This document shows, piece by piece, positions 4,699 to 64,000 of a stretch of DNA of 64,000 bases; the first letter of the stretch is position 1, and each line of letters begins with the position of its first letter. The notes below the pieces were generated by a model. That model was given only the letters and a program-made list of their open reading frames with translations. It was not told where the DNA came from and did no database searches. The position numbers and the translations under genes were made by a program. The stretch is from Bolinopsis microptera (lineage: Eukaryota > Ctenophora > Tentaculata > Lobata > Bolinopsidae). The DNA lies in assembly GCF_026151205.1 (NCBI RefSeq), contig NC_087083.1, forward strand, positions 5,310,460 through 5,374,459, given 5' to 3'.

Positions 4699-7066
4699 CA
4701 ATATTTTGATATAAATGCTTCCCAGCACTTAAATACAGCCAATACTTCGATGTGCCCATGTTCCAAAAATCTGGATTCTCAGGAGGATTATTGTCCCAAA
4801 ATTGGAACATTTTGGAACATAGGTAACATCGGTTCTAGACATGCAGTGATTCCCAAACTTGGTTTGAGTGGTCGCAGGACCAATATAAACACTTTCCGAC
4901 CAATTTTAAACCGTTCTGAGCATTTTTAGGACAATATTCATTTTTGTTCATTTTCGTTCATTCCATGAACCTGGGTAATGTTATTTGAGTTTTGATGGCT
5001 CTTAGGCCTAGTTTTTACCTATATCCATCTTAGAAAACCGAATTGAGGCTTCCCAGCACTTAAATACAGCCAATACTTCGATGTGCCCATGTTCCAAAAA
5101 TCTGGATTCTCAGGAGGATTATTGTCCCAAAATTGGAACATTTTGGAACATAGGTAACATCGGTTCTAGACATGCAGTGATTCCCAAACTTGGTTTGAGT
5201 GGTCGCAGGACCAATATAAACACTTTCCGACCAATTTTAAACCGTTCTGAGCATTTTTAGGACAATATTCATTTTTGTTCATTTTCGTTCATTACATGAA
5301 CCTGGGTAATGTTATTTGAGTTTTGATGGCTCTTAGGCCTAGTTTTTACCTATATCCATCTTAGAAAACCGAATTGAGGCTTCCCAGCACTTAAATACAG
5401 CCAATACTTCGATGTGCCCATGTTCCAAAAATCTGGATTCTCAGGAGGATTATTGTCCCAAAATTGGAACATTTTGGAACATAGGTAACATCGGTTCTAG
5501 ACATGCAGTGATTCCCAAACTTGGTTTGAGTGGTCGCAGGACCAATATAAACACTTTCCGACCAATTTTAAACCGTTCTGAGCATTTTTAGGACAATATT
5601 CATTTTTGTTCATTTTCGTTCATTACATGAACCTGGGTAATGTTATTTGAGTTTTGATGGCTCTTAGGCCTAGTTTTTACCTATATCCATCTTAGAAAAC
5701 CGAATTGAGGCTTCCCAGCACTTAAATACAGCCAATACTTCGATGTGCCCATGTTCCAAAAATCTGGATTCTCAGGAGGATTATTGTCCCAAAATTGGAA
5801 CATTTTGGAACATAGGTAACATCGGTTCTAGACATGCAGTGATTCCCAAACTTGGTTTGAGTGGTCGCAGGACCAATATAAACACTTTCCGACCAATTTT
5901 AAACCGTTCTGAGCATTTTTAGGACAATATTCATTTTTGTTCATTTTCGTTCATTACATGAACCTGGGTAATGTTATTTGAGTTTTGATGGCTCTTAGGC
6001 CTAGTTTTTACCTATATCCATCTTAGAAAACCGAATTGAGGCTTCCCAGCACTTAAATACAGCCAATACTTCGATGTGCCCATGTTCCAAAAATCTGGAT
6101 TCTCAGGAGGATTATTGTCCCAAAATTGGAACATTTTGGAACATAGGTAACATCGGTTCTAGACATGCAGTGATTCCCAAACTTGGTTTGAGTGGTCGCA
6201 GGACCAATATAAACACTTTCCGACCAATTTTAAACCGTTCTGAGCATTTTTAGGACAATGTTCAATTTTGTTCATTTTCGTTCATTACATGAACCTGGGT
6301 AATGTTATTTGAGTTTTGATGGCTCTTAGGCCTAGTTTTTACCTATATCCATCTTAGAAAACCGAATTGAGGCTTCCCAGCACTTAAATACAGCCAATAC
6401 TTCGATGTGCCCATGTTCCAAAAATCTGGATTCTCAGGAGGATTATTGTCCCAAAATTGGAACATTTTGGAACATAGGTAACATCGGTTCTAGACATGCA
6501 GTGATTCCCAAACTTGGTTTGAGTGGTCGCAGGACCAATATAAACACTTTCCGACCAATTTTAAACCGTTCTGAGCATTTTTAGGACAATGTTCAATTTT
6601 GTTCATTTTCGTTCATTACATGAACCTGGGTAATGTTATTTGAGTTTTGATGGCTCTTAGGCCTAGTTTTTACCTATATCCATCTTAGAAAACCGAATTG
6701 AGGCTTCCCAGCACTTAAATACAGCCAATACTTCGATGTGCCCATGTTCCAAAAATCTGGATTCTCAGGAGGATTATTGTCCCAAAATTGGAACATTTTG
6801 GAACATAGGTAACATCGGTTCTAGACATGCAGTGATTCCCAAACTAGGTTTGAGTGGTCCTAGGACCAATGTTAACACTTTCCGACCCATTTTAAACCAT
6901 TCGGAGCACTTTGAGAAGAATGTTCATTTTCGTTCATTTCTGGTCATTCCATGGGTAATTTTATGCGACTTTTGATGGCTCCTAGGCATAGCTTACGGCT
7001 ATATCCATCTTAGAAAACCGAACTGAGCCTTCCGAGCACTAAAATACGGCCAATACTGCGATGTAC
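4699..7066 (-). repeat. Satellite array, about 331 bp unit, about 7 copies, inverted orientation
   Basis: These are the same units as at 1080-4460 in reverse complement. The word TTTTTACCTATATCCATC recurs about every 330-331 bp near 5016, 5347, 5678, 6009, 6340 and 6671, with a diverged last copy near 7000. With the forward array this forms a head-to-head palindrome of about 6 kb. The last unit is the most diverged, matching erosion at the outer edge. Confidence 0.93.
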
Positions 7067-13300: not shown

Positions 13301-13416
13301 GCCCAAGAACTCTAGAAGTGGATGAACACTGTTATATTCAGAAACTTAGAACTATACGTCCATTGGGGCTCAATGCCATGGACCCGTTTGGGATTCCATT
13401 ATTGGATTTATCTTAA
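10342..13416 (+). CDS. Penelope-like reverse transcriptase with GIY-YIG endonuclease
   Basis: This single 1024-codon ORF would copy the element's RNA at a nicked target. In order it shows a basic, helical N-terminus (about 130-190); the RT0 motif TKADKGGA (331-338); PAFKIHK (430-436) and ARLITA (450-455) of the early RT motifs; catalytic Asp in FTFDYKALYDSL (D516); RGVPTGGS (576-583); and RYIDDG (618-623), whose two Asp complete the RT triad. A Ser/Thr/Pro-rich linker (about 775-850) follows, then a CGGRHCGTC zinc-knuckle-like motif (870-878). The GIY-YIG domain starts at VVYLFSC, includes CYVGRT (918-923) and RARVNEH (928-934), and contains a downstream Glu in LEVDEHCYIQ. Length and order fit endonuclease-bearing Penelope-like elements. 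All key residues appear present and there is no internal stop. I chose the ATG at 10342 because it directly follows the direct repeat. Confidence 0.93.
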   Translation: MTAVEEGSELSGDIGMTQPCVLPPRQHKNSKRTLSKNFSDYSPSQQLSIHRLRLWFLKNCRYLKRPPPSLRSKGATIVESPEMFRNLSILESQNLELAIKAKDLQINELRGTISSDEPQLTLPPNDVKSLKKHYISKIEFYRSQNNNKWKHWPNKTKALLQTLLTQTKKRRNFKKRQHRNDRKVERDAKRALDTGSVVVLVNEDIPAGALALLGKGLGYIPTPTRDNIDLRLDMKLVTNKILNYSNRVLSGETGLPNISNLPAKLRRKNYSTAKPSNEQAVNTAVDTMRRELDIKLKTAGSPPKPTNLSSSEIKGLKWLEQHIKDGTIAITKADKGGATLIIDPDLIKQRTLEKLENQELYEKLDCYPTQQLYEKLFKHWVQEKEEGLILARDAKEVMGVSDNTRADQSGPTNRPSTLPHYRPGQPYFYPAFKIHKLKKEDLIPGAKPPARLITALHEGASRRPDVFLADKYLRQLERDFCEDLLIDNRDALVWLDNINNTLDTELKSNIKAFTFDYKALYDSLSPHLTIQALKVAMEEKRPEWSAKFKEWLIRSVELSLESSIGKFNGEWYRQKRGVPTGGSICVQLANIAVYHVMREQVYSYTDTELMEPVKSVKRYIDDGCGVFHGTKRQFSKFIATVNSRLAELGLHIDENIIEDNNVYVSFLDIKFCFDTAGDLQTDLHVKETDARSYLYFGSHHPNHTFSSIVYNACLRLRRIINDNDRLRKQIDELKTFFFQSNYPKTMVDNISEKVKGFERCLKPLDNSNSNVLVPKSPEPAVRVISTFGSDQELVESVQRLEPELSRTRSFSGLSGSHTSGNTPGSPISSRAGTSRPIFKFVRRTGTSFRRKLVKAKQFADDLTQPHTRPCGGRHCGTCNIISPHPSITVNGQRAKAVTGTCVSYNVVYLFSCQLCNMCYVGRTVQPLRARVNEHRAHYYKLISDNTFVPEENDDGFSLGKHLVEVHNMKQRDNFNQAYKVSILSNSSPRTLEVDEHCYIQKLRTIRPLGLNAMDPFGIPLLDLS

Positions 13417-33160: not shown

Positions 33161-33907
33161 ATGCCTACCTTCTCCAAGTTCCTCAACGGTTTCAGAGGAT
33201 GTAAACAGGTGCTTGATTCTGACGGATATATCTACAGCCGCAAGAAAAATGATGACACCGTCCTCTCCTCTGCTTGGCGTTGCCAGAAGAACAAATCCCT
33301 TAAATGTCCTGCCAAGTGCTATCTCGCTCTCACAGACAACAATCTTTCCCTTGGAAGTAAACCACACAACCACGATTCAGATCTGGCTACCCCACAGAGA
33401 CTCGAACTCCTTACAACGCTCAAGAGGAAGGCTGCAGAACAACCCCTGTCGGCGACTCAGAACCTGATATCAGAAGTCCTTGCTGATGCTTCAACAGAAG
33501 TAAACCAGACGCTACCTAATATGGAATCCCTTGGAAAAGTCGTCCAACGAGCCAGAGCTTCTGCCTCCGGATCTGCCCAACATACCGAGTCGAAGACTTC
33601 TCTTGAATTCGTTCTTCCTCCCAGCTGCACATCTACGAGAAGAGACGAACCATTTATCCTCTTTGATGGGAAGACTGACCGAGATGTGAGAATCATAGCC
33701 TTCGCCACCAACAGGAACCTTCACACCCTCGCAGAATACAACAATTGGATTGCTGACGGGACAACCTATCAAGGAGCAACAGGTTGTTACAGATTACCAT
33801 CTGGATCGGCTTGCTGTTGGAAAGACTCCTTCCAAAAAGAAGAGGATTTCCAGCAGTATTCTGTACGACCTTTGTTCCTTCTACACGACATACCCAACAA
33901 AGATTGA
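33161..33907 (+). CDS. FLYWCH zinc-finger protein with truncated MULE transposase domain
   Basis: This 248-codon ORF lies inside the nested MULE. Residues ~1-70 form a FLYWCH-type zinc finger: F..GFRGCKQVLDSDGYIY, SSAWRCQKN, CPAKC and a final HNH supply the aromatic positions, the two Cys and the His pair. After a linker, residues ~185-205 read FATNRNLHTLAEYNNWIADG, the typical start of a MULE transposase catalytic core, including the first catalytic Asp. The rest of the core (normally more than 200 residues) is absent. The frame then runs through unrelated residues to a stop, and overlapping frames at 33750-33984 hold no clear continuation. The product could still bind element ends but not catalyse transposition. 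Confidence 0.7.
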   Translation: MPTFSKFLNGFRGCKQVLDSDGYIYSRKKNDDTVLSSAWRCQKNKSLKCPAKCYLALTDNNLSLGSKPHNHDSDLATPQRLELLTTLKRKAAEQPLSATQNLISEVLADASTEVNQTLPNMESLGKVVQRARASASGSAQHTESKTSLEFVLPPSCTSTRRDEPFILFDGKTDRDVRIIAFATNRNLHTLAEYNNWIADGTTYQGATGCYRLPSGSACCWKDSFQKEEDFQQYSVRPLFLLHDIPNKD

Positions 33908-43422: not shown

Positions 43423-45690
43423 ATGGTTAATCGTGTTCAAAAGGAAATTTGTTATCACTGTCTGAAGAATATTGGTCTAGGGCTTCCCCACTTCGAATGC
43501 TTTAACTGCAACAGTATTTTCCATGCCAAATGTTTTAATCCCTCCAAAGCACAAGTTATTAATGACAACTTTTACTGCATCAAATGTAAACATTCTATAT
43601 CTAAAAAATATAATCCTTTTAAAGTAATGACCGATCCTGAAGTTAATGACTGTGACCCATGTCTCCAAAAGATGTCTGATGTTTTGGAAAACTGTAGATC
43701 CTATACAATTAAGGACTTTAACACACATATCAAACCGTGTTTTGCAAGCAACTGCTCCATGATTTTCCAGAATATAGATGGCAATAAAACAAATTTTGAT
43801 GCCTTTAGCATGGAACTAGACCTAATAGCCGAAAAATTTAAAATTATTGGACTTGCTGAAACCAATATTGGAATAGAGGAAAGCACTGTTTACCATCTAG
43901 AGGGATACAATTGTTTCTACCAAGATAAACATATCAATAAAGCGAAGGGAAGTGGAGTAGCATTGTACTTAAAGAACGAACTTAATGGAGTTGTAAACGA
44001 AGAATTATCATGGGTAACCAAAAATCTTGAAACCCTATTTATTACCATTCAACATGATGAACCTCTACATGTAGGAGTTCTGTACCGTCCTCCTAGTGGG
44101 AACGCCTCAGAGGCACTAAATGAACTTAGAAAAATGATTGAATCATGCTCAAAAAAGAATGTTTACATACTAGGAGACTTCAACATTAATCTCCATGATG
44201 AAAACAGTAAACTCGTTCAAGACTTTGAAAACCTTATTCTAGGCCTAGGTTTATCACCACTTATTTCTACGTCTACGCATCATAAACCAGGATGTAACCA
44301 ATCATGCAGTAAAATTCTAGAAAAGTTAATTTATAAGAGGCTCTATAGTTTCCTTACTTCCAAGGGGATAATACATGAAAACCAGTTCGGCTTTAGGAAA
44401 GGACACTCCACCAGCCATGCACTGAATTACTCTGTAGAACATATAGAATCGTTGATTAGTAAAAAGCAACATGTCCTAGGGTTCTTCATCGATCTCTCAA
44501 AAGCCTTTGACACTCTAGATCACTGTAAACTAACTACTAAATTAAAAAACTACGGTATAAGAGGGAATGCTCTGAATCTTATCTCTAGTTACTTGTCTAA
44601 TAGGAAACAATTTGTAAATGTTCTAGATACCAAATCTGATGAATTACCGGTCGAATTTGGAGTCCCTCAGGGTAGTGTATTAGGACCTCTACTTTTCCTA
44701 CTGTATATCAATGATATTTGCAATATAACTAATAAGGGTAAATTTGTCTTATTTGCAGACGATACTAATATATTTGTCGCTGCCGATTCGAAAAATAAAG
44801 CATACGAATTGGCTAATGAAGTACTACAGGCCGTAAACAAGTATATGGGAGTTAACCTACTGCACATTAATGTAAAGAAGTGTTGTTATATGTACTTTTC
44901 TCCCTCTAAACGTGATAAAAGCGAATTAAATGCAGATATAGATAGCCAAAACTTGTCCATAAATAACAAAATAATTAAACGTGTAAGTCAGACAAAATTT
45001 CTTGGAGTAATCATTGATGATAAACTGAGCTGGAAACCACACATATTATCTCTCAATAAGAAACTAAGTAGTGCTTGTGGACGTATCTACCGTATTAAGA
45101 AATGCTTGCCAGAATCACTATATAAGCAAATATATCATTCTCTCTTTGAATCACACCTAGGTTATGCTATTTCTGTCTGGGGAGGTATTCCCAATAATCA
45201 GTTGAAACCGCTATTTATTACTCAAAAGAAGTGTATCAGGATTCTCTTTGGAGACTTTGAAGCCTATGTAGACAAGTTCGAGACATGTGCTAGAGCAAGA
45301 CCAATTAATTCTCAACGTCTAGGATCTGAATTCTATGTTAAAGAGTCCACCAAACCTCTGTTCACAAAACACGAACTACTTGCTATAGAGAACCTATACA
45401 GATACCGTTGTTTAATGGAATTGTTTAAGATCATTAAGTCACGAGTACCAATTTCGTTATACTACCTATTCGGCTTATCAAATAGGAAAGATAATTTGTT
45501 AATCACGCCCTCTCCAACTAATCAATTTATGTACAAATCTGCATGGCTGTGGAACGAATTTCGTAAAGTTGGGCCGATGAATTTCACCTCCCCTTGCAGC
45601 TCTGTCAAGAATTTGCTTAAACAGTCACTTCTAAGAGCTCAAAACAGGTATGGAACTGATTGGTGTGACAAAAATTTCACTGAATTCTGA
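43423..45690 (+). pseudogene. ORF2 of copy A: PHD finger, partial endonuclease fused in frame to partial RT
   Basis: 755 codons against 1169 in the intact relative. Residues 10-55 form a PHD-type zinc finger (CYHC, CFNC, HAKC, CIKC). The endonuclease follows with FQNIDGN, LAETNIG and GDFNIN (251-256). At residues 295-296 (about nt 44305) THHKPGCNQSC passes straight to KILEKLIYKRLYSF of the RT. About 350 residues are therefore missing: the SxHH end of the endonuclease and RT motifs up to NYRPVSILP. The remaining RT blocks FGFRKGHSTSHA, IDLSKAFDTLDH, GVPQGSVLGP and FADDTNIF are intact, as is the C-terminal CARARP region. The deletion kept the frame, so a shortened protein could be made, but it should be inactive for retrotransposition. 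Confidence 0.88.
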
Positions 45691-47385: not shown

Positions 47386-48457
47386 GTGATGATGGTGATG
47401 TGGGTTAATCTAGATGTAACAGATTCCGGAACTATGGGAGCACCATCTGTCATCTTACCGTTTTATTTACTGTATGTGGGAACATCTACTGATGAAGTAG
47501 CTATCAAGAGAGCCATTCCAGTGGCGCAGGTGGCTCACGTGTCACATAGCCAACAGAAAAGAAACATGATGAATAGTTCTTACAGCACTAGGGTATCAGC
47601 CCCTACTTTTGTTTCTGGACGAGAAGGTGGTAATGATTTCACCAACTTAAATCCGAATGGAAGGTTGGTGAATGATGAGCCTAATCAACCTGAAACACCC
47701 AACAGCATAAACGAAAACAAAAAAAAAAGTTTATTTTCATGTAACGACATTACCTGGGTAGGCACTCTTAACACTAGAACGATAAGAACTACCCAGAGGA
47801 AACTGGAGATGGTACATCTTTTCGAGAAGAGTGGCGCAGAGATTGTAGGTATCCAAGAGCACAGGATAGTTCATGAAGAGCCTGTCAGAGTAGAGAGAGT
47901 TGGCAAGAGCAGCTATCTAATTACTTCATTAGCTACTAGGAATAGGGCCCAGGCATCAGTGGGCGGAGTGGGATTCATCCTAACAAGCAAGGCATTTGAT
48001 GCAACTACGGAGATAACACCAGTGACGGAGAGAATCCTTAAGATATCTCTCAATGGGAATCCTAAACCAACCTTCGTCTGTGTCTATGGACCTACGGAGG
48101 CAGATAGTGTAGAAGCAGCAGAAAAGTTTCATAACGATCTAAGGTGTGCAGTCTCGCAGATCCCTGCTCACAACTTCTTGGAGGTGATTGGGGATTTTAA
48201 CGCTCACCTATCAAAGAGGGACGAGAATGACTGTGGTTGGTATTTCCATGAGAGAACCAACAGAAATGGGGAGCTGCTTCGGGATACTGCCCTGGAATGT
48301 AATCTGGAGATTACAAACACCAGGTTCAGAAAGAAGCGGGGTAAGATGTGGACTCACCTATCGGATGGAACCCTGAATAAGTCTCAGATAGACTTTATTC
48401 TAGTGAGGAAGAAGTGGAGGAACAGTATCAAAGACACTGAAGTCTACAGTTTCTTTA
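47386..48457 (+). pseudogene. RTE-like ORF, 5' half: apurinic-type endonuclease
   Basis: Open from 47386 (first ATG 47389). After about 115 low-similarity residues the endonuclease domain starts at WVGTLNTRTIR. It continues with VGIQEHR (catalytic Glu), VCVYGPT, VIGDFNAHL (Asp and Asn) and LNKSQIDFILVRKKWRN. It is of the type often annotated 'craniofacial development protein 2-like', which derives from RTE endonucleases. After residue VYSF the reading frame runs into the inserted element and stops at 48471. The final SDH-type motif lies on the other side, at GTDHRFV (52396 on). Confidence 0.88.
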
Positions 48458-48464
48458 TACAGCC

Positions 48465-48502
48465 ACACTAATGATAGCTGGCAACACTAATGATAGCTGG
48501 CA
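48465..48502 (+). repeat. 19 bp tandem pair at the 5' junction of copy B
   Basis: ACACTAATGATAGCTGGCA twice in a row. It could be made by template jumping or slippage during 5' completion of reverse transcription. Confidence 0.85.
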
Positions 48503-51500
48503 ATGCTACATCTGCATCGCCAGCTTACCACAACGGTACTGCCCATTTGCTTCTGCACTTATACGTGACAAACATGACCCAGTCCACCTTGATGAAATTG
48601 AAGATGTTTCTGAAATCAATGAAATCCATAAAAGCTGTAAAAATTATGATCATAAAAGCTTTAAGAACCTCATAAAGCTGTATCATAGAAATGGGCAGAA
48701 CCTTACTGGTATTTTTAACAATATTGATGGAAATGCTGCAAATTTTGATACATTTGTCACAGAAATCTCACAGTACAGTCATCCACTCTCGTTTATTGGC
48801 TTGGCTGAGACAAATATTGATGCAAACCTCAAAGACCTGTATAGGATACCCGGTTATCTCTCTGAATACACCAATAAATTACGTGACAAATCTAAAGGTA
48901 GTGGAGTGGGAATTTACATCAATGAGTCACTTACTTACACCCGTATTGATAAACTATGTATGTGTACCCCTAACCTTGAATCAGTGTTTGTCTCCATAAC
49001 AAATGTTGGCAGGCCCCAAACAGTTGGCGTCCTATACAGACCACCTGGTGGATCTGACAAAGATGCCCTACACGAATTTGAGAGCCTTCTTAATCAGGTT
49101 CCTGATAGGAACGTTATCCTGCTTGGAGATTTCAACTTTAATCTATTTAATAAAGGCTCTGCCAGCTTTGAAAACATTTTATATGGAAATAACTTCATCC
49201 CACTTATATCACTGGCAACGCACCATAAACCAGGCTGTGTCCCATCGCTTATTGACAATATTCTGACAAACTCCACTGACAATATTGTGTCAGCTGGACT
49301 ACTGGATACCAGGGTTTCGCATCACTCTCCAATTTTCTGTATTCTCGAATGTAGCATGCCTGAAGAACCAGAACTTGACCCTTGTAAACCAAAATATGAC
49401 TACTGTGAATCTAATATGAACAAGTTCTTAGAAGATATTCAAACAAATTTTTGTGGGCAGGTGTGCTACAACGTAGAAAACTTTGAAATTTTTGCAAATA
49501 AGATAAAACTTTTGATCGAAGAAAACTTTTTAATTGAATCTGAATCGTTCAAAAAGTCAAAAAGGAATATGATTGCAAACCCTTGGATCACACCAGGGAT
49601 CATTGCATCAGTGAAAAAGAAAGAATATCTTTACAAGCAGTGGAAGAGTACAATTAAGGAACCCAACCCTCTTGGAGACTCTGATCTATACTTAACCTAT
49701 AGTAAATTCCGTCGACAGTTAAAATACATTATCAGATCTGCCAAGAAATTGTACTATTGCAGAAAATTCTCAAAAGTCTCAGGTAATATGAAGCAAACAT
49801 GGGCACTGATCAATGAACTGAGAGGAAAAACAAAAACTGGAATTAAGGCCTCGTTCAAAATAGATGGTAGTTTAGTAAAAGACAAACGTGTCATATCGAA
49901 TGGCTTTAACATGTTCTTCTCTTCCATTGCAGGTAAACTTAATGCGAAACTCTGCTCCTCCAAACCAATAGGTCGTGACACAGCTTGCCAGAGACCCCTT
50001 GATTATAAGAACTATTTTAACAAAAGAGTCACCAACAGTATGTTCTTAAACCCCTGTGATTCTGAGGAAATCGAAAAAATTGTTAAAACCTTCCAGGGTG
50101 ACAAGGCTAGTGACATATCAATAGCTGTTCTTAAGAAATGTTGCACAACAATCTCTAGGCACCTAGCTGGTTTCCTAAATTCATTCATGAAGCTGGGTCT
50201 ATTTCCAAATATTCTCAAAATAGGTAAGGTTACCCCAGTATTTAAAAAAGGAGACCCACAGCTGTTTGACAACTACAGGCCTATATCCATTCTACCTATC
50301 TTTGGTAAGATATTTGAAAAAGTAATTTACTGCCGACTATATAGCTTCTTTACTTCACATATGGTCATATACGATAAACAGTTTGGATTCAGATCCAACC
50401 ACTCAACGGCACATGCCATCAATTACTCCATTGACCACATTCTTAAAAACCTAGAAAGTAAGAATCATGTAATTGGCATATTTATTGACTTAAGCAAAGC
50501 GTTTGACACAATCGACCACAGAAAATTACTTGTCAAACTTGAACACTATGGCATAAGAGGGCCCTGTCTTGGCCTAATTGAAAGCTATTTGTGTAACCGA
50601 CAGCAGTATGTTGATTTCCAAAATACACACTCTGATCACTGCAAAATTGAATATGGGGTACCACAGGGATCAGTTCTAGGCCCTCTCCTCTTCTTACTCT
50701 ACATTAATGACATTACTAACTCTAGCCAACTTGGACACTTCATACTGTTTGCAGATGACACAAACATATTTGTTGCTGGAAAAACTGAAAAAGAAGCCTA
50801 TTTGAATGCTAATAAAGTACTTGAATCTGTAAATAACTATATGGAATCTAACTTGCTGCACATTAACCAAAGCAAATCGGTCTACATGTTGTTCAGACCT
50901 GGCAGGTACTCGTCCTGTGCACGTGCTCGCGAATATGGCTCTGAGAACTCACTCACGTTATCAGGCACCACACTTACACGAGTAGATAAAGTGAGATTCC
51001 TTGGTGTTATCATAGACCATGAACTATCCTGGGAACCCCAACTGGATAACATAAAAAGTAAACTAACTACAAGTATAGCTATAATTAAACGTATTATGAA
51101 GTTTATTCCAGAAACAGAGTACCATAAGCTGTATGACTCCTTATTCAAGTCTCATATGAGCTACTGTATCAGTAGCTGGGGTGGTGTCACACCTTATAGA
51201 CTATCTAAACTGTTCTCCATCCAAAAAAGATGCGTACGCCTTCTATTTGGAAGCAAACCAAGCTTTGACCGGGCAGAGTACTATGAAACATGTGCACGTG
51301 CAAGACCATACAGTGAACACATCACAAAAAGGAGCTTTGCTTTGGAAAACACTAAGCCAATTTTCAATATCGAGAAAATCATGTCAATCCACAACCTGTA
51401 CATCCAACATATATCCACTGAACTGTTTAAAATCTTGAAACTGCATCAACCCATCTCTCTGACAAGTTTATTCCAAACAAGTTCCAGAACATGTAGCCAA

Positions 51501-51785
51501 ACTATGCGGGTCCCCCGACACAAACTTGACATTTCTAAACACAATTTTGTCGTCAAAGGTACGACTATATGGAACAGTTTGATTGATAAAATATTCGACA
51601 AATGCACTCCTAATGAAAACAATGTCATGGTCCCTGGCTCTAGTAAATTTTCCGACCTTTCCTCCCCCATCTCAATTATCAAGAGCCGTATCAAAAAGCT
51701 GTTACTGGAAACCCAGCAATTGACAACACCTGGGCGTGAAATTGAGTGGCTCCCCCTAAATAGCTGGGGCATTGAACCAGCTTAG
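48471..51785 (+). CDS. ORF2 of copy B: endonuclease and reverse transcriptase, N-terminally truncated
   Basis: 1104 codons from a junction-derived ATG. Only the last zinc pair of the PHD finger remains (QCYIC). The endonuclease shows FNNIDGN, GLAETNID, KGSGVGIYI, GDFNFNL, and SHHSPIFC, so its catalytic Asn, Glu, Asp/Asn and His residues are present. The RT has GKVTPVFKKGD, NYRPISILPIFGK, QFGFRSNHSTAHA, IDLSKAFDTIDH, YGVPQGSVLGPLLF and FADDTNIFV. CARAREYGSEN and TCARARPYSEH lie in the C-terminal region. No internal stop, so the copy is recent despite its 5' truncation. It may give an active enzyme but lacks ORF1 and a promoter. Confidence 0.9.
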   Translation: MIAGNTNDSWQCYICIASLPQRYCPFASALIRDKHDPVHLDEIEDVSEINEIHKSCKNYDHKSFKNLIKLYHRNGQNLTGIFNNIDGNAANFDTFVTEISQYSHPLSFIGLAETNIDANLKDLYRIPGYLSEYTNKLRDKSKGSGVGIYINESLTYTRIDKLCMCTPNLESVFVSITNVGRPQTVGVLYRPPGGSDKDALHEFESLLNQVPDRNVILLGDFNFNLFNKGSASFENILYGNNFIPLISLATHHKPGCVPSLIDNILTNSTDNIVSAGLLDTRVSHHSPIFCILECSMPEEPELDPCKPKYDYCESNMNKFLEDIQTNFCGQVCYNVENFEIFANKIKLLIEENFLIESESFKKSKRNMIANPWITPGIIASVKKKEYLYKQWKSTIKEPNPLGDSDLYLTYSKFRRQLKYIIRSAKKLYYCRKFSKVSGNMKQTWALINELRGKTKTGIKASFKIDGSLVKDKRVISNGFNMFFSSIAGKLNAKLCSSKPIGRDTACQRPLDYKNYFNKRVTNSMFLNPCDSEEIEKIVKTFQGDKASDISIAVLKKCCTTISRHLAGFLNSFMKLGLFPNILKIGKVTPVFKKGDPQLFDNYRPISILPIFGKIFEKVIYCRLYSFFTSHMVIYDKQFGFRSNHSTAHAINYSIDHILKNLESKNHVIGIFIDLSKAFDTIDHRKLLVKLEHYGIRGPCLGLIESYLCNRQQYVDFQNTHSDHCKIEYGVPQGSVLGPLLFLLYINDITNSSQLGHFILFADDTNIFVAGKTEKEAYLNANKVLESVNNYMESNLLHINQSKSVYMLFRPGRYSSCARAREYGSENSLTLSGTTLTRVDKVRFLGVIIDHELSWEPQLDNIKSKLTTSIAIIKRIMKFIPETEYHKLYDSLFKSHMSYCISSWGGVTPYRLSKLFSIQKRCVRLLFGSKPSFDRAEYYETCARARPYSEHITKRSFALENTKPIFNIEKIMSIHNLYIQHISTELFKILKLHQPISLTSLFQTSSRTCSQTMRVPRHKLDISKHNFVVKGTTIWNSLIDKIFDKCTPNENNVMVPGSSKFSDLSSPISIIKSRIKKLLLETQQLTTPGREIEWLPLNSWGIEPA

Positions 51786-55018: not shown

Positions 55019-56192
55019 CCCCCCCCCCCCCCCCCCCGGAGAAGGATGAGGAGGAGGACTGAGGACCGAGGAGGAAGAGGAGGAGGATGAAGAGGAGGAG
55101 GACCCAGGAGGAGGAGGACTGAGGAGGAGGACTGAGGAGGATGACTGAGAGGGAAGAGGAGGAGGAGGAGGAGGAGGAGGACTCAGGAGGAGGAGGAGGA
55201 CTGAGGAGGACTGAATAGGAGGAGGAGGAGGGGGACTGGGGGAGGACTGAGGAGGAGGATGGAGGACTGAGGAGAAGGATGAGGAGGAGGACTGAGGAGG
55301 ACTGAGGACTGAGGAGGAAGAGGAGGAGGGGGACCCGGGAGGAGGACCCGGGAGGAACTCAGGAGGGGGGAGGGGGAGGGGGAGGAGGGGACGTTGGGAC
55401 TGATGGGAGGATGGGGGGAGGGGGAGGAGTAAGGAGAAGGGGGAGGAGGGGGACCAGGGGGACTGGGGAGGAGGATGAGGATGACTGAGAAGGAGGGGGA
55501 TAAAGGGTACTGAGGAGGAGGTGGGGGGTGATGAGGGGATACTAAAGGGGGAGGAAGGATCAGAGGAGGATGGAGGAAGGGGATCAGGGGAGGATTAAGA
55601 AATGAGAAGGAGGACTGAGGAGAACTGAGGAGGAGGAGGAGGAGGAGGACTGAATAAGAGGAGGAGAAGGAGGGGGACTGGGAGAGGACTGAGGACTGAG
55701 GAGGACTGATGAGAAGGATGAGGAGGAGGACTGAGGACCGAGGAGGAAGAGGAGGAGGAGGACCCAGGAGGAGGAGACTGAGGAGGATGCTGAGAGGGAA
55801 GAGGAGGAGGAGGAGGAGGACTCAGAGGAGGAGGAGGAGGACTGAGGAGGACTGAGAAGGAGGAGGACTGAGGAGGAGGAGGAAGAGGAGGATTGAATAG
55901 GAGGAGGGGGACTGGGGGAGGACTGAGGAGGAGGATGGAGGACTGAGGAGAAGGATGAGGAGGAGGACTGAGGAGGACTGAGGAGGAAGAGGACTGGGGA
56001 GGAGGACCCAGGAGGAGGACTCAGGAGGAGGAGGAGGACTGGGGAGGAGGAGGACTGTTGAGGACTGATGAGGAGGACTGAGGACGAGGAGGAAGAGTAG
56101 GAGGAGGCTGAGGAGGGGAGGAGGAAGAGGACTGAGGAAGATCAGGAATACCAGGAGGAGGCCGAGGAGGAGGAAGAGTAGGAGGAGGAAGC
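55019..56192 (+). repeat. C19 run followed by (GGA)n/(GAGGACT)n microsatellite
   Basis: About 1.15 kb of purine-only GGA/GAGGACTGA variants. The long leucine/serine-rich minus ORF across it is a composition artefact. Purine-pyrimidine strand asymmetry gives triplex potential. Confidence 0.92.
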
Positions 56193-56516
56193 ATCTAAAT
56201 GTTATTTCCATTTTTGTCCGTTTTTGTCCATTTTTGTCCGCTCTATTTTTTGTCCGTTTTGAAAATATAGGGTACCGTTTTGAAAATATAGGGACAAAAA
56301 ACATGATCCCCTATAACAGCAAAAATTGAACATTTTATTTAGCAATTTAGGTGTCCATTAATGTCGCTAATGTCCGTATATGTCCGTCTATGTCCGCCTA
56401 TGTCCGTCTATGTCCGCCTATGTCCGCCTATGTCCTGTCCTTTTTGGATTCTATGAGACAAGCGGACATAGACGGACGTGACAACCCCCCCCCCCCCCCC
56501 CCTGTTTTACTATTAG

Positions 56517-56780: not shown

Positions 56781-58382
56781 CACGTAAAAGGTATCGCAAC
56801 ATTAAACAGTAGCGCCGATAAAACTAAGAAATTCGTGAGTAATAGGACATATTTTGCTTGAGCGCTCGATTTTCATAGTATGGCGTAAATCGGCAAAAAT
56901 ATGCGCGGCGCATAAATTTTTTTAAATTCACTAAAAAGTTTTTTTAAAATCATAAAAACATCAAGTACATTAAAATTTAAGCTTTTTTATTATAATTTGT
57001 GACAAATTTAACTGTCAATAAAATTATATTTAAGTGCCAAAAATAAAATGCGCGCAAAAATGGATAAAAACGATTTTTGAATTTTTGGCTTAGGAAATTC
57101 TGAAATAACAGGTTAATTTTAATATAAACTTGTGCAGCTTATTTCTTTGCAGCTAGAGCTAGACTAAGAGACTTTACACAAATTTTTTGATATTCCAACA
57201 AATTTAATTTGCTTTAAAAAAATTAAAAAATACAATTTGTTTACTTATTTTTGGACCAAAGTGAAAATTGATTTTTAGCAATTTTAAGGTGACCAGGGAA
57301 TTTTAGTTTAATTATCTCGGAACCAGTTTTAATAAATTCTACGGTCAAAAATACGTTCAGGGGTGTACAACTTTTAAAATATTTCAAACTATGGCGAACA
57401 CCGCGAGTCGGCGAGTGCATAACTAACTGATTAAACTAATAACTAACTAAACGTAACAGTATAATTAGTTGTAACATCATAATGCATAAGGTTTCGATCA
57501 ATGATTAAGTTTATAATTAAAATTGTTCTACTACTACCGTTTAATGTTTAGGCGTTTATAGTACAATTTGATAATTTTGCAAAACGGCTCGCGGATTTTG
57601 AATTTCAGCTCCTTATATAGAGCTCCGAGAGTTTTGAGTTCAGAACAGATGTAGAAGATAAAACAGCTAAAAAGAAAGCACAAGCAAAGTGGAGGAGCTT
57701 ATTTCGATAAATTTATGTTGATGGAAAAAGTACGAAAGTTTAAACGTAGATTTTGGGGGTGAAGATCGAGTTTTAGGATGATGATTAATCACTCTACACT
57801 CGACTGTCACGTAACTTTTTTAACCCGTTCTCTAGCTGGTTCTGAACGACTTTTCGAAACCGTAACCCTCTAATCTGATCCCAACCCTAACCCTAACCCA
57901 ATCCTTAACAAAAACATATGCTGAAACCCTAACCCTAACGAGAAATTAGACTAACTTCCTTATACGGACATATCACGTGATCGAGACAGTTTTTCGCCAA
58001 TATCTCGTCAGGGGAGCATTTTAACCCTATGTCATGGGGGGTGATTCGGAATCAGCGTCCGAAAATACATCGCATGAAGTTGGTTACAACCGTCGGGGGC
58101 TCTTTTTGAACAATCTCGAAGATCGACTGTAGAGTGATTTAGCACGCTCGCGAGTTTTAACGACTATATTTACGGATCTCCTAACGATAGAACCTGCACT
58201 CCTGCCTGTCCAACCAACTTCATTCTCAAGGAAGACCAACACCCAGGATGAGGCCCGTCTTGATGTATCAGCTAACATTTTAAAATGTTTTAATACTTTC
58301 AACACTACTATATAACAAATAATTTGAGGACCCGAAACCGCTGAGCAGTCTCTATCTTGAACTTGCTCAACCCCATCTCACT
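56781..58382. other. AT-rich region upstream of copy C; contains a dispersed repeat and telomere-like words
   Basis: 57985-58135 is an inverted copy of the repeat at 14618-14760. CCCTAACCCTAACCC lies at 57885-57899 and again, shorter, near 57925. The last part may be the 5' UTR of copy C, but its 5' end could not be placed. No gene seen. Confidence 0.5.
57985..58135 (-). repeat. Dispersed repeat (inverted relative to 14618-14760)
   Basis: Shares GATTCCGAATCACCCC, a CATG(A/T)CATAGGGTTAAAA-type block and AAAATGCTCCCCTG on the minus strand. Confidence 0.7.
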
Positions 58383-58388
58383 TTGAGA

Positions 58389-60362
58389 ATGGTGGAATCC
58401 GGTCAAACCGATCAACAGCCAGTGGGGCTGGGTACCTCAAATTATGTCTTTCAGGAAGATAACAAAGGAAATGACAATGAAAGGCATGATTTGGGGTCCC
58501 AGATTAAAGACAATCAGACATCAGCCCCTGCTGCACCTGAATCCTCAGAAGCTGTTGCAGAGAACAGAACCCCTGAGGACTGTGAAGCAGACGTAAGCAG
58601 TTTTGTTTCATTTTGTACCAATGCTTCAACACCTTTTGATACAATTCTTTTGGCCCATTCAAAAAACTTACGATCTGAAGTAGACAATATCAAACTGAAC
58701 TTTTGTAGTACTTTGAAAGTAGAAGTAGACCAATTTGCAACGTTGACCCCTACAATCATCAAAAACTGTTCAACACTTAACAAATATACCCTGGCAGACG
58801 GCCTTCTGTCCCTACTTTCTCTGTCAGAGAAAGTATGTGCAGTAATAGGGGGTAAAAGGTTGTCTATCGGTGACAACCCCATCGATGAAGCAGCAGTTGC
58901 TTCTTCCGTAGCTGCTGACTCCATTTCTGGAAATGCTACCCTCCATGAATCCCTTCAGGCTATTCAAAATAGCATTCTTAAGAGAGATAAGGTGCACAAT
59001 GGCACTCTCAAATCAATCAGTGGCCAGCTTAACACCCTGACTCTCTCCATTGATCAGTACATGAAACCATCAGATATGTCAACTCCAGATGTACCACGTA
59101 ACACTGCATTTCCTTCTTTCCCAATAGGCCTTCCTAATATCAATATCGAAAAACCAGATCCTAAGATTGACTTACATACAGTGCAAAATCCTATAGACAC
59201 CTCCATTGGTCACATTGAGTCATTCACACCAGATTTTGTTGCCCAAGAACTTTCGGATAAACTCACTGAATACCTTGACACATTCAGTGAACAGTTTGAT
59301 GCAAACTCAGAAAGAGGACATGGTGTCATAAGCTTTGGGGATGCATACAACTATCCAGGAGCCAAAGCTGCAAAACCTATATCCAAAAACATCCCTGAAC
59401 CCCTAACTGAACTTGTTTCGCTCATCCAGGCCAAATTCCCTGAAAGTGTCATTAATCAGTGTTTAGTGAATCGCTACCTTGACGAGAAATCAGAGCTGCC
59501 GAAGCATTCGGACAACGAAGCCTCACTAATGTTTGATAGTAACATCTTCACTATATCACTAGGCAGTACCTGTGATGTTCTATTCAGTAAAATCGAAGGA
59601 TCTGAAACCAAAACTGTATCAGCTACTGGAAAAAGTCTATATGTTATGAGTAAGCAATCTCAGTCTGTTTGGCAACATCAAATAGATCAATCTCCAACCA
59701 CACGTGAGAAAAGATATAGTGTTACATTTCGTTATGTTACATCTAACAACGAAAATGCAACAATAATAATAGGAGACTCCAACACCAGATTCTTGAAATT
59801 CGGTAGTGGGAAAGGACGTTTCGGTCATAGAATGCCAGGGAAAAGGGTAGAATGTTTTACTATTGATATGATTAACCCAAGTTTGTGTGAAGGTTACAGA
59901 AATATTTTTATTCATTGTGGAGTAAATGATATTAAGAAACGGAGCTCAAATATCGAGCAGTGTGCCAGTGATCTCAAGGTAAAACTTGATGATATATGTC
60001 GTAAATGTCCATACTCCAAGGTTACCGTTTCGCCAGTACTACCCACTAAGTTTGGCTGGTTGAACGAGAAAGCATTATATTTTAACAAACTTATATTTCA
60101 ATATGTTGACATGAACCCAAGGGTGGGAACTCTAGATTTTAATGAATTTGTTGGTGAAGATGGTAAACTAGCTGACCAGTTCGGTCGTTTCAAGGATAAA
60201 AGTGATGCCATCCATCTTGGGTCTACTGGTATCTTTAAGTTGTCTAGGCTAATAGTGGATAAAATACAGCGCAATCCAATAGATGGGCGCCAATTTAGTG
60301 ATATTGCTAGGAGTAAAGTTGGGATGTTCAATTCACGTGTTCAAAGAGCTCCGAAACCATGA
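58389..60362 (+). CDS. Retrotransposon ORF1: AlkB-like dioxygenase domain plus SGNH esterase domain
   Basis: The frame is open from 58383, but 58389 is the first ATG, giving 657 residues. The N-terminal third is acidic and Ser/Thr-rich, with a helical, coiled-coil-like stretch at about 180-225. Residues ~305-455 look like an AlkB-type 2-oxoglutarate/Fe(II) dioxygenase: VNRYLDEKSELPKHSDNEA gives the HxD iron ligands (H373, D375), then FTISLG, a distal His in WQHQ (H430) and RYSVTFR (R442, R448), matching the RxNxTxR of AlkB. Residues ~457-630 are an SGNH hydrolase: GDSNTRFL (S464), the G(V)ND block HCGVNDIKK (N513) and DAIHLG (D606, H609). SGNH esterase ORF1s are known in CR1-like elements; the AlkB domain is my inference from the residue pattern. 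It probably acts on the element's RNA or RNP. The stop overlaps the ORF2 start. Confidence 0.82.
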   Translation: MVESGQTDQQPVGLGTSNYVFQEDNKGNDNERHDLGSQIKDNQTSAPAAPESSEAVAENRTPEDCEADVSSFVSFCTNASTPFDTILLAHSKNLRSEVDNIKLNFCSTLKVEVDQFATLTPTIIKNCSTLNKYTLADGLLSLLSLSEKVCAVIGGKRLSIGDNPIDEAAVASSVAADSISGNATLHESLQAIQNSILKRDKVHNGTLKSISGQLNTLTLSIDQYMKPSDMSTPDVPRNTAFPSFPIGLPNINIEKPDPKIDLHTVQNPIDTSIGHIESFTPDFVAQELSDKLTEYLDTFSEQFDANSERGHGVISFGDAYNYPGAKAAKPISKNIPEPLTELVSLIQAKFPESVINQCLVNRYLDEKSELPKHSDNEASLMFDSNIFTISLGSTCDVLFSKIEGSETKTVSATGKSLYVMSKQSQSVWQHQIDQSPTTREKRYSVTFRYVTSNNENATIIIGDSNTRFLKFGSGKGRFGHRMPGKRVECFTIDMINPSLCEGYRNIFIHCGVNDIKKRSSNIEQCASDLKVKLDDICRKCPYSKVTVSPVLPTKFGWLNEKALYFNKLIFQYVDMNPRVGTLDFNEFVGEDGKLADQFGRFKDKSDAIHLGSTGIFKLSRLIVDKIQRNPIDGRQFSDIARSKVGMFNSRVQRAPKP

Positions 60363-63300
60363 ATAGAACAAATATATGTGAGAACTGTATCTGCTGCAGC
60401 AAACCTATTCGTGCTGGACACCCATTTATAAATTGTAATAAGTGTGATTGCATCATTCACAAGAGATGTAAAACACAGGAAAACATTGCCACTTTTAGAG
60501 AAAAAACTTACTGCTCAAATTGTATTCAAAATCATGATATAATTCGTTATAATCCATTCTATCAAGCACCTCACTTTTCAAACAACGAACTACTTGACAA
60601 TGAACCTCACGACTATATAGACTCAATAGGTACAATCTCAAAAACTCTTGAGAACTGTCAATCATATTCTACTAAAAACTTCAACAACCTCATAAAGCAG
60701 ATTCCTCAAACAACATCAAAGCGCATATTCTCACACTACTTTCGAAATATTGATGGAAATGGTACTAACTTTGACAAATTGGCCTTAGAATTAGCCTGCA
60801 TAGACCACAAATTTTCTGTGATAGGTTTAGCAGAAACAAACATTGATCCCTGTAATAGTCAGCTGTACCAAATTAAAGACTATACTTCATGTTACCAAAA
60901 ACGCTTCGTTTCTAATAAGACACAACAGGTAAAAAGTAAAGGAAGTGGAGTTTCTCTCTACATGTACATTCACAACTCCTTTAACTTTAGTGTGATTGAA
61001 AAGTTATCTGTTTGTACAGAGCAATTTGAGTCCCTATTCGTAACAATAAGTAATGCTCCAGAACCAGTAACAGTTGGAGTTGTATACCGCTCACCAAGCA
61101 ATCCACTTGCTAACTTCAATGCACAGTATAAAGAAGTTCTTACTGCACTGAAAGGACATAAAGCATACATATTAGGGGACTTCAATGTTAACTTAACCAA
61201 TTTATCAGGCCCAGATGAAGATATATTCGAAGAAGTTATTTATAGTCACGGGTTCACGCCCACAATATCCATTCCCACACACCAAATGCCCCACTGCTCA
61301 AAAACGTGCATTGATAACATACACACTAATGACATTCACTCATCAACTATATCTGGAGTAATTCAGGATAGTGCTTCACATCACCAGCCCATTTTCTGCC
61401 TTCAAGTAATGAATTCTGATACTAGTTCGGAACAGAATAAATCACCTGAAAAAACAACCATTTATTATAACTATAGTAATGCAAACCTTGATAAGCTCTG
61501 TGAAGAAATTGAAAACGACATAGATACATTTTACCACAGATGTGACTCTTTTGAATCCTTCATGGATCTGTTTCAAGAAAAGATAGATATATCTTGCAAA
61601 TTGGCTTCACCAAAAACCACCAAACGAAATAATATAACAAATCCATGGATCACAAACGGCCTTATCAACTCTGTGGAGAAAAAAGCCAGACTTTATTTTG
61701 AATGGAAAAAAACAAAAACATTGTTAATTCCAGATGGGGATCTGGAAAGACATAATGTTTACAAGGACTACTCAAAATATCTTAAAATTGCCATAAAAAC
61801 TGCCAAAACCAGGTATTATGCTGAAAAGTTTGAGAAAAATAGCCATAACTCCAAAAAAACCTGGCAAATAATTAACGAGCTTCGTGGCAAAAAGAAGAAT
61901 CAGCTAAAAGATGACTTCATTATAGATGGAACTAGAGTAATTTGTAGGCGGACAATTGCAAACAAATTCAATAGTTACTTTACATCTTTAGCTAGTAATT
62001 TAAATGAGAAGGTTTTGTCCGAGAACCAACTGTCTATCCAACCAATGCAATCATTTGTTGAGTTTATGTCGAAATCAGTCAACAGTTCAATACATCTAGA
62101 AGAAACTCATCCTGAGGAGATTCTTGAAATAATTCAAGAATTCGTTAACGGAAAAGCCAGTGATATACCAATAGCAGTTATCAAGAAACCGGCTCATCTC
62201 TTATCCAACATATTAGCAAATTTGTATAATACATGTATTCAAAAAGGCACGTTCCCATCCATATTCAAAATAGGCAAAGTAACTCCTATCCATAAAAAAG
62301 ATAATAAAGAAAATATTGAAAATTATAGACCTGTGTCAATATTGCCAATCTTTGGTAAAATATTTGAAAAAATAATATACAAACGGCTTTATACCTTTTT
62401 CACTGCTAATGACATTCTCAGTAATGAACAATTTGGTTTTCGAAAAGGCCACTCAACCTCACATGCACTCCACAAATCAGTTCATTCAATCACAACATCA
62501 ACATCCAGTGGTAATCATGTTCTAGGAATCTTTATTGACCTAAGCAAAGCTTTTGATACTCTTGACCATGGCATTCTCCTGAGGAAACTGGAAAATTATG
62601 GGGTTAGAGGTCTAGCTCTAGGACTTCTAAAAAGCTATTTATCCGATAGATCACAGTATGTTTCATTTCTCAACACTACATCAGAGACTATGAATGTAAA
62701 ATATGGAGTTCCCCAAGGTTCCATACTAGGCCCTCTACTTTTCTTATTATATATGAACGACATAATAAACTGTTACAAAGGCGATGAATGCAAATTTGTG
62801 CTCTATGCTGATGACACAAATATATTTATCACTGGACCGTCCAAAGAAGCAACATACTTGAAGGCCAATAAAGTTCTTGATTTCGTATGCAAATTCATGA
62901 GAATTAATCTCTTACATATAAATATGTCTAAATGCTGCTACATACATTTTCTACCTGCATACGAATCTGATGAAACCTGCGCCAGGGTTAGGCCGTATGC
63001 CAATGAACATGACAAATCACAAGGAATATTTATAAATGGACACAAAATTGTCAAGGTTAGCAACACCAAATTTCTTGGTGTAGTAATTGATGAAAAACTT
63101 AGCTGGGGCCCACATATAGAATATCTAAGAAAAAAAATTAGATCCACTACAGGAGCACTTAACAGGATTAAACATTCAGTTCCAGGGGAACACTACCAAA
63201 AAATATACTCTGCATTATTGGAATCACATCTTGCTTACGGAATAAGTGTTTGGGGCTCAGCTCTCAAAGACCAACCAAACGATAAGCTGTTCATAACTCA

Positions 63301-63868
63301 GAAACGTTGTATAAGAATCCTTTTTGGAGACCTAAATGCATACCTCGACAAACATGCCACTTGTGCACGAGCCAGACCTTATACAAAACAGAGGTTAGGA
63401 GCTGCTTTTTTCGAAAAAGAGCACACCAAGCCCATTTTTAATCGACTAAAATTGCTTACCGTTCAAAACTTGTACAAATACCACTGTATATCTGAGATAT
63501 TTCGAATTATGAAATTTCGCACTCCATACTCGTTGTATTGTACTATAGACTCATCAAAACGTGATACAAGCAATGTCATAATTCTCCCAAGAAAAACCAA
63601 CACTTTTCTTTATATAGCCTCCAAATTGTGGAATAGCATACATAAACGGATTCTAAATGAGAATGGGGAAATCCTCACTACTTCTGTAGCTTTGGTTAAA
63701 TTACGCTGTAAAAGTATCATCCTGGGATCTCAATCCATCAACAATAATAACACCTGGACTTACCACAACTTTCACATCGCCCCTCACTCAATCACAGACC
63801 AAACCATTTCATCACTCACTCACCAAATTGCCGACCCAATATCTATTGAAGTGGCGAAAATTTTCTAG
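60359..63868 (+). CDS. Retrotransposon ORF2: PHD finger, APE endonuclease, reverse transcriptase
   Basis: 1169 residues, all domains complete. A Cys/His-rich PHD-like finger spans 7-55 (CENC, CNKC, HKRC, CSNC). The APE endonuclease runs from ~125 with FRNIDGN, LAETNID (E159), KGSGVSLYM, GDFNVNL (D274, N276) and SASHHQP (H341, H342). The RT follows: IGKVTPIHKKD (638-648), NYRPVSILPIFGK, FGFRKGHSTSHAL, FIDLSKAFDTLDH (725-737), YGVPQGSILGPLLF (782-795) and YADDTNIF (816-823). The C-terminal part has ETCARVRPYANEH and ATCARARPYTKQR, then SKLWNS. ORF2 begins at the ATG inside ATGA of the ORF1 stop, a layout used for termination-reinitiation in several LINE clades. It should nick target DNA and prime reverse transcription on the element's own RNA. 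Confidence 0.95.
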   Translation: MNRTNICENCICCSKPIRAGHPFINCNKCDCIIHKRCKTQENIATFREKTYCSNCIQNHDIIRYNPFYQAPHFSNNELLDNEPHDYIDSIGTISKTLENCQSYSTKNFNNLIKQIPQTTSKRIFSHYFRNIDGNGTNFDKLALELACIDHKFSVIGLAETNIDPCNSQLYQIKDYTSCYQKRFVSNKTQQVKSKGSGVSLYMYIHNSFNFSVIEKLSVCTEQFESLFVTISNAPEPVTVGVVYRSPSNPLANFNAQYKEVLTALKGHKAYILGDFNVNLTNLSGPDEDIFEEVIYSHGFTPTISIPTHQMPHCSKTCIDNIHTNDIHSSTISGVIQDSASHHQPIFCLQVMNSDTSSEQNKSPEKTTIYYNYSNANLDKLCEEIENDIDTFYHRCDSFESFMDLFQEKIDISCKLASPKTTKRNNITNPWITNGLINSVEKKARLYFEWKKTKTLLIPDGDLERHNVYKDYSKYLKIAIKTAKTRYYAEKFEKNSHNSKKTWQIINELRGKKKNQLKDDFIIDGTRVICRRTIANKFNSYFTSLASNLNEKVLSENQLSIQPMQSFVEFMSKSVNSSIHLEETHPEEILEIIQEFVNGKASDIPIAVIKKPAHLLSNILANLYNTCIQKGTFPSIFKIGKVTPIHKKDNKENIENYRPVSILPIFGKIFEKIIYKRLYTFFTANDILSNEQFGFRKGHSTSHALHKSVHSITTSTSSGNHVLGIFIDLSKAFDTLDHGILLRKLENYGVRGLALGLLKSYLSDRSQYVSFLNTTSETMNVKYGVPQGSILGPLLFLLYMNDIINCYKGDECKFVLYADDTNIFITGPSKEATYLKANKVLDFVCKFMRINLLHINMSKCCYIHFLPAYESDETCARVRPYANEHDKSQGIFINGHKIVKVSNTKFLGVVIDEKLSWGPHIEYLRKKIRSTTGALNRIKHSVPGEHYQKIYSALLESHLAYGISVWGSALKDQPNDKLFITQKRCIRILFGDLNAYLDKHATCARARPYTKQRLGAAFFEKEHTKPIFNRLKLLTVQNLYKYHCISEIFRIMKFRTPYSLYCTIDSSKRDTSNVIILPRKTNTFLYIASKLWNSIHKRILNENGEILTTSVALVKLRCKSIILGSQSINNNNTWTYHNFHIAPHSITDQTISSLTHQIADPISIEVAKIF

Positions 63869-64000
63869 ACAAATGATATTTCGATATTATTGCTGCAGCA
63901 GATACAAATACCAACATTATTATATTCCCAAACGTTTGAACCTTTAAATTAACTAGGAAAGTCAATCCTCAACTTGACTTTTACTGTTTTAAACAGATAT
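63869..64000 (+). other. 3' UTR of copy C (continues past window)
   Basis: AT-rich non-coding sequence after the ORF2 stop. The tail repeats expected for this family are not reached. Confidence 0.6.

Follow-up and report, generated by a model that had tools for sequence, protein, structure and literature searches.

The 64,000-nucleotide stretch analysed here (the window; NC_087083.1, positions 5,310,460 to 5,374,459, from the ctenophore Bolinopsis microptera) contains an intact long interspersed nuclear element (LINE). Its first open reading frame (ORF1, 58389-60362 (+), 657 aa) carries an AlkB-family 2-oxoglutarate (2OG)/Fe(II) dioxygenase domain, followed directly by an SGNH esterase domain. 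From profile searches and a predicted structure, the presence of the AlkB-family domain is practically certain. The domain is apparently a functional demethylase of a recently active LINE and would act on single-stranded nucleic acid of the element itself, a reading to which a probability of roughly 0.55 is assigned from sequence and model. The architecture was initially annotated for this one element, and in the host genome it is also found in further LINE families and in Helitrons.

The AlkB and SGNH domains of ORF1

According to the ORF list, Pfam and the AlphaFold model, ORF1 consists of a disordered N-terminus, a helical part, the AlkB domain (residues 268-452, 59190-59744 (+)) and the SGNH domain (residues 456-630, 59754-60278 (+)). 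The HSDNE motif (59505-59519 (+)) contains H373 and D375, and has N376 and E377 where ALKBH3 has a DE pair. It is followed by H430 (59676-59678) and by R442 (59712-59714) and R448 (59730-59732), all on the forward strand (59676-59732). Carried over from the AlkB family, H373, D375 and H430 are presumably the Fe ligands and the two arginines the 2OG-binding residues. When an AlkB motif pattern was run over the whole window, it matched ORF1 at 59505 only.

The Pfam family PF13532 (2OG-FeII_Oxy_2) matches residues 318-448 with 60.2 bits (cut-off 31.2), and the related 2OG-FeII_Oxy family scores 29.5 bits. Against a profile built from six non-LINE AlkB proteins ORF1 reaches 79.5 bits, while the best of 997 shuffles reaches 3.8; the reversed ORF1 and ORF2 gave no match to this profile among the matches listed. 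The AlphaFold model displays the AlkB-type double-stranded beta-helix, with ALKBH3 and ALKBH2 as the nearest solved structures. Fold matches also include plant virus AlkBs, for example that of Little cherry virus 2, and the titles of the matched structures mention 3-methylcytosine (3mC) single-stranded DNA (ssDNA) and 1-methyladenine (1meA).

The SGNH domain contains the blocks GDSN (462-465), GVND (511-514) and DAIH (606-609). Its Lipase_GDSL_2 score of 15.9 bits lies below the cut-off of 32.9, and the name rests on motif, fold and the match to 4c1b, the nearest PDB entry. Across the alignment of relatives described below the blocks are conserved: S464 in all 75 filled rows, N513 in 73 of 74, D606 in 70 of 72 and H609 in 71 of 72. 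The initial annotation, made from the letters alone, thus holds for both domains: the five AlkB residues are exactly as it named them, the fold it proposed to look for is that of the model, and the complete SGNH triad that it placed immediately behind them is present.

Within AlkB, the domain is of the ALKBH2/3 type by sequence and not of the ALKBH5 type. When a profile of seven element AlkB domains was compared to the solved AlkBs, ALKBH3 (E 5.5e-29) and ALKBH2 (8e-22) ranked on top. Weaker matches were AlkB of E. coli (1.3e-10), ALKBH8 (2.3e-10), ALKBH1 (9.5e-4), ALKBH6 (0.0082) and ALKBH5; with an E value of 0.022 for the last, an ALKBH5-type assignment was rejected. A six-residue segment beside F102 of ALKBH2 is missing in the element AlkBs, as it is in ALKBH3 (comparison with the F102A entry 4mg2).

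Conservation in relatives

A search of 5.8 billion proteins yielded 77 relatives of ORF1 among 7,987 scored candidates, and PF13532 is annotated in every one of them. The five relatives named by NCBI all come from the ctenophore Mnemiopsis leidyi, and one Mnemiopsis gene model (P0074) encodes AlkB, SGNH, endonuclease and reverse transcriptase (RT), in this order, in one protein. Ligands were counted in an alignment of the window ORF1 with these relatives (78 rows, not picked by motif). The iron triad is retained almost throughout (H373 and D375 in 78/78, H430 in 77/78), as are the arginines (R442 in 77/78, R448 in 76/78), which rules out the loss of ligands that would have spoken against the initial annotation. 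In the residue pair after HxD, E377 is invariant (78/78), while the position before it is Asn in 39, Asp in 34 and another residue in 5 of the 78 rows.

As a side observation, T388 and S444 are found in the element AlkBs (91 of 92 motif-preselected rows each), where the five other rows (L001-L003, P0082 and P0085) have Ser and Asn, a possible signature of the element lineage.

Copies in the host genome

The host assembly comprises 264.65 Mb in 232 contigs, of which thirteen (C1-C13, 15-26 Mb) contain nearly everything. PF13532 has at least 151 matches in it (150 of 587 candidates scored), and among the matches listed no frame but the last has an internal stop; the window's own copy is not among them. 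A search with ORF1 itself gave 67 matches. Six of these cover residues 1-657 without a stop at 99-100% amino-acid identity and lie on six contigs of 15-24 Mb. The others include a large sister family, mostly at 52-53% identity. At the DNA level, two further full-length copies differ so little from the window's ORF1 (99.5-99.6% identity) that a recent movement of the element follows.

A chance motif or a misassembly can be regarded as negligible in probability. The Pfam profile, the predicted fold, the shuffle control and the six full-length copies on six contigs speak against it; the PF13532 and ORF1 matches in the genome also rule out a single-copy curiosity.

LINE families with AlkB and SGNH

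In the window type and its kin, AlkB precedes SGNH in all six further representatives opened (L054-L059), and PF13532 is found in all of them. Their SGNH domains were recognized from the motif and from homology to the window domain; four of the six also have a Pfam GDSL match, none over the cut-off, and in L054 and L056 the assignment is by motif only. Another relative, L014, has PHD, AlkB and GDSL matches (PHD and GDSL below cut-off), and the start of its ORF2 is 37.8% identical to that of the window element.

Two further LINE types share the architecture. The first encodes a 646-aa ORF1 with AlkB at 250-368 and GDSL at 491-631 (26.8 bits), next to its own endonuclease-RT ORF2, which shows 26% identity to that of the window element across 1027 alignment columns. 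The second has frames of 843-884 aa with AlkB at 160-336 and GDSL at 692-772 (17.2 bits); its ORF2 can be aligned to that of the window in the RT part only, at 24% identity. The regular expression used for SGNH does not recognize the blocks of the 646-aa family and of the Helitrons, which have diverged, so that SGNH was assigned there from Pfam (mostly below cut-off) and from the motif by eye.

An SGNH relative free of AlkB was not found among six opened representatives (697, 683, 645, 751, 724 and 1611 aa; 37-43% identity) from 150 SGNH places (528 candidates); AlkB lies upstream in all six. Whichever of the two comes first, SGNH and AlkB stand together in almost all element proteins that were scanned, the exception being L029. 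The two domains might therefore serve one pathway, with the AlkB fold acting on protein or lipid together with SGNH. Alternatively, the fold could be a mere nucleic-acid-binding module: esterase-type ORF1 proteins are described without structural RNA-binding domains in the available text of PMC3905857, so AlkB could supply the binding. Both variants are considered unlikely, as the Fe and 2OG ligands are almost invariant and binding alone would not need them.

Helitrons and free-standing AlkB loci

The same pair of domains was unexpectedly encountered in Helitrons. L033 (2303-9679 (+)) encodes a single 2459-aa frame with GDSL (9-177, 29.5 bits), AlkB (428-560, 79.1 bits), DUF6570, Helitron_like_N (79.9 bits) and a PIF1 helicase (74.4 bits). 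Three proteins from other contigs (P0091-P0093, 58-59% identical in the aligned part) match the same five Pfam families, and L032 and L038 are further SGNH- and AlkB-containing Helitrons; in the genome such elements lie on contigs C10, C3, C12 and C9. Six frame lengths (2225, 2459, 3226, 3321, 3366 and 3388 aa) are common to the AlkB and Helitron_like_N matches listed, and the remaining Helitron_like_N frames are not among the AlkB matches listed. SGNH stands before AlkB in Helitrons and after it in LINEs. The GDSL cut-off (32.9 bits) is exceeded in two Helitron-type frames (L030, 37.8 bits; L035, 34.0 bits), while L029 (868 aa), also of the Helitron kind, has AlkB without GDSL. A fish Helitron has reportedly captured an SGNH gene (PMC4021074).

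L001 and L002 look like host ALKBH genes. At L003 (L060:3955-4842 and 5554-6411 (+); genome C5:22266454 onward) an AlkB ORF (99.9 bits) is followed, after some 700 bp and in the same orientation, by a weakly SGNH-like ORF (21.2 bits, cut-off 32.9). Among the ORFs of the surrounding 9.9 kb no RT or helicase frame was seen; no other ORF above 120 aa lies downstream, and upstream there are low-complexity ORFs only. L003 could represent two paired host genes, an element that decayed or was domesticated, or yet another type of element. The element AlkB profile, used as a query, had 13 matches. Among the seven examined, three resemble pieces of the 843 LINE type and four (P0082, P0083, P0085 and P0089) look like free-standing AlkBs.

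Phylogeny, module exchange and selection

A maximum-likelihood tree of 45 AlkB domains, with few cellular AlkBs sampled and several long branches, separates 40 LINE and Helitron rows from L001, L002, L003, P0082 and P0085 with a branch support of 89/87, which is not decisive. Every kind of element forms its own clade, and the window type, the 646 type and the Helitrons unite at 99/95. Without L003 the elements still group (92/93), with the latter three at 100/97; for a tree that places L003 among the elements, the approximately unbiased test stops short of a firm rejection (p-AU 0.0516). One lineage of element AlkBs, perhaps exchanged between LINEs and Helitrons, is favoured from the sequences.

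Block-wise identities shift abruptly within the sister family. Between L039 and L041 the identity is 75-79% in the blocks of AlkB and 93-95% over the final three full blocks, which cover SGNH; between L040 and L041 it is 84-87% at the N-terminus and 71-78% across AlkB. These shifts among the L039-L044 copies suggest that ORF1 modules were swapped between subfamilies.

Selection was estimated as the ratio of nonsynonymous to synonymous substitution rates (dN/dS; Nei-Gojobori), restricted to pairs of dS 0.05-1.5; such pairs have branches in common and are non-independent, and the copies were picked for open frames. In the 843 family the ratio is 0.04-0.06 in AlkB (12/15 pairs), 0.14-0.19 upstream (12/15) and 0.19-0.54 downstream (13/15). 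The Helitrons show 0.13-0.27 in AlkB (14/15 pairs), 0.31-0.51 upstream and 0.25-0.95 downstream (15/15 each). In the sister family, AlkB lies at 0.10-0.23 (median 0.225; 5 of 45 group pairs usable) and is less constrained than its two flanks: the median is 0.142 for the 16 upstream pairs, which include three from the window family at 0.46-0.51, and 0.125 for the 13 downstream pairs. For the 646 family none of the 45 AlkB pairs was usable, and the upstream and downstream regions gave 0.49-0.53 (3 pairs) and 0.85-1.00 (9 pairs). The dN/dS check that had been proposed for the domain was therefore answered in part: the ratio is low in three other element families (843, Helitron and sister), whereas the AlkB of the window's own family is too uniform for it to be used.

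Domain capture by transposable elements is well known, and the AlkB could in principle be a piece of a host ALKBH gene that was captured recently and is carried along without benefit. Such a passenger is very improbable. The window AlkB is just 23-25% identical to L001, L002 and L003, the element AlkBs are deeply diverged, their ligands are near-invariant and dN/dS is low in the three families.

Comparison to known systems

Human ALKBH3 and ALKBH2 are the best sequence and structure matches of the window domain and share its fold, its Fe/2OG ligands and the HxDxE motif. The window domain differs in that it lies inside a transposon ORF1, is fused to SGNH, has N376 in place of Asp, lacks the ALKBH2 finger segment and has a predicted activity. 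Plant viral AlkBs, for their part, sit in replicase polyproteins and are not known to have an SGNH partner. Those of flexi- and closteroviruses likewise provide a selfish RNA replicon with an AlkB module, for which RNA repair has been proposed (available text of PMC9289625). The same source describes a Ty3/Gypsy retrotransposon of the orchid Phalaenopsis that encodes an AlkB-type demethylase, active in vitro on N6-methyladenosine (m6A) in RNA. There, a plant long terminal repeat (LTR) element carries an ALKBH5-like m6A-type enzyme in a separate ORF; here, several families of animal LINEs and Helitrons are concerned, with an ALKBH2/3-like domain that is fused into ORF1 in the LINEs.

The esterase-type (type IV) ORF1 of CR1, L2 and RTEX LINEs, such as zebrafish ZfL2-1, resembles the window ORF1 in its helical or coiled-coil region and its SGNH esterase (PMC3905857, PMC4120745). 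As far as the text of PMC4120745 goes, the described esterase-type ORF1s differ in having no AlkB module: among the ORF1 types distinguished in the Jockey superfamily (I-V) there are PHD and esterase types, and neither AlkB nor dioxygenase is mentioned in the main text. In bdelloid LTR and Penelope elements accessory modules (GDSL and DEDDy ORFs) are also common to unrelated element classes; AlkB and Helitron are each without mention in the text available (PMC5408684).

None of the matches listed in a search of open-access PMC text described AlkB in LINEs or Helitrons, with Repbase, preprints and subscription papers outside its scope. Judging from the portion of PMC9289625 available, earlier reports of such AlkB modules concern plant RNA viruses and a single LTR family of orchids; the LINE class, the AlkB-SGNH fusion and the Helitron parallel appear to be new.

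Proposed mechanism

ALKBH2 and ALKBH3 repair 1-methyladenosine (m1A) and 3-methylcytidine (m3C), and ALKBH3 works on single strands. As the window domain is of this type by sequence, m1A- and m3C-like lesions are more plausible than m6A as its first candidate substrates. Helitrons have no RT and pass through a single-stranded DNA intermediate; because they carry related AlkBs, the element's single-stranded nucleic acid is the candidate common substrate. The ORF1 protein (ORF1p) would multimerise and coat the element RNA, as other ORF1ps do. With Fe(II) and 2OG, its AlkB domain would then oxidatively strip Watson-Crick-face methyl groups, such as those of m1A and m3C, from single-stranded RNA and/or first-strand cDNA of the element itself. 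The template would stay readable for the element RT and the new copy would be free of blocking lesions. The neighboring SGNH esterase would have a separate task in membrane or lipid interaction, as was proposed for ZfL2-1, whose esterase binds phospholipids (available text of PMC3905857).

The domain could instead remove a regulatory mark of the host, m6A on element RNA or N6-methyladenine on element DNA, and so block epitranscriptomic or epigenetic restriction. In line with this, the authors of the orchid study proposed this role for the Gypsy enzyme, which erases m6A in vitro (PMC9289625, as available). Furthermore, all six related ORF1s L054-L059 contain a match to a PHD-type finger, a chromatin-reader type, one of them above cut-off, and a presence in both RNA- and DNA-based elements suits an arms race. 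However, the element AlkBs are ALKBH2/3-like and ALKBH5 is a far weaker sequence match, so that this anti-silencing role appears doubtful, though better placed than a binding-only module. As to ctenophore DNA, non-CpG methylation is low in Mnemiopsis and 5-methylcytosine amounts to about 1% in Pleurobrachia, according to a review (PMC8141815, available part).

More broadly, and tentatively, an exchangeable AlkB module, nearly always paired with SGNH, may circulate among several LINE lineages and Helitrons as a self-encoded eraser of methylation on element RNA or ssDNA, in an epitranscriptomic arms race with the host.

Extent of the element and other features of the window

The LINE copy starts near 58287 and runs on the forward strand through the end of the window (58287-64000), with its 3' end at about 64632 in the same numbering. 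Similarity to the copies on C8, C3 and C5 starts at 58286-58292 and stops at 64612 (C8), 64632 (C3) and already at 64004 (C5). The terminus of the C8, C3 and window copies consists of one or two 20-bp units AAAATTTGTTGTTTTCTTGA. About 211 bp of the 3' untranslated region of the window copy (64219-64430 in window numbering, past the window end, in L031) are missing from the C8 and C3 copies.

The helical region of ORF1 spans residues 82-225 (58632-59063 (+)) according to DSSP on the AlphaFold model, with the longest helices at 82-109, 133-153 and 182-225; for residues 161-181 the predicted local distance difference test (pLDDT) is below 50. By analogy with the ORF1p of ZfL2-1, the region is perhaps a multimerisation coiled coil.

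ORF2 (60359-63868 (+), 1169 aa) overlaps ORF1 in ATGA. It comprises an N-terminal Cys/His finger (by eye), an APE-type endonuclease and an RT (62288-63088 (+), residues 644-910; Pfam RVT_1 135 bits, YADD by eye). The endonuclease match (Exo_endo_phos_2, 22.1 bits) is under the cut-off of 27.4, yet at the expected position. ORF2 thus has the APE-type endonuclease and the RT that a CR1-like LINE of the Jockey superfamily requires. The clade name 'CR1-like' itself was given in the initial annotation; the architecture and the short-repeat 3' end suggest this affiliation.

Other LINE ORFs lie at 47389-51785 and 43423-45690 (+), where two ORF2-like frames (48471 and 43423) can be aligned in part to the ORF2 described above, with 37-55% identity. 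Near the element, a low-complexity proline/leucine/serine repeat array (55822-56304 (-)) resembles the repeats that flank the C5 copy (L052, L053). A 1024-aa ORF at 10342-13416 (+) has an RT match barely above cut-off (31.4 bits) and a GIY-YIG match below threshold (15.4 bits), and perhaps belongs to a Penelope-like element. A FLYWCH zinc finger (36.5 bits) is encoded by a 248-aa ORF at 33161-33907 (+).

Implications

If the proposed function is true, an AlkB under selection in LINE ORF1s and Helitrons would demonstrate that animal transposons are truly limited by alkylation or methylation of their nucleic acid. The role of ORF1p is poorly understood, and the protein would gain a defined enzymatic task beside the esterase. 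Whether transposition needs the demethylase of ORF1p, and which modified base it acts on, would become directly testable in a LINE. The finding suggests that a jumping gene would clean or unmask its own genetic material during copying.
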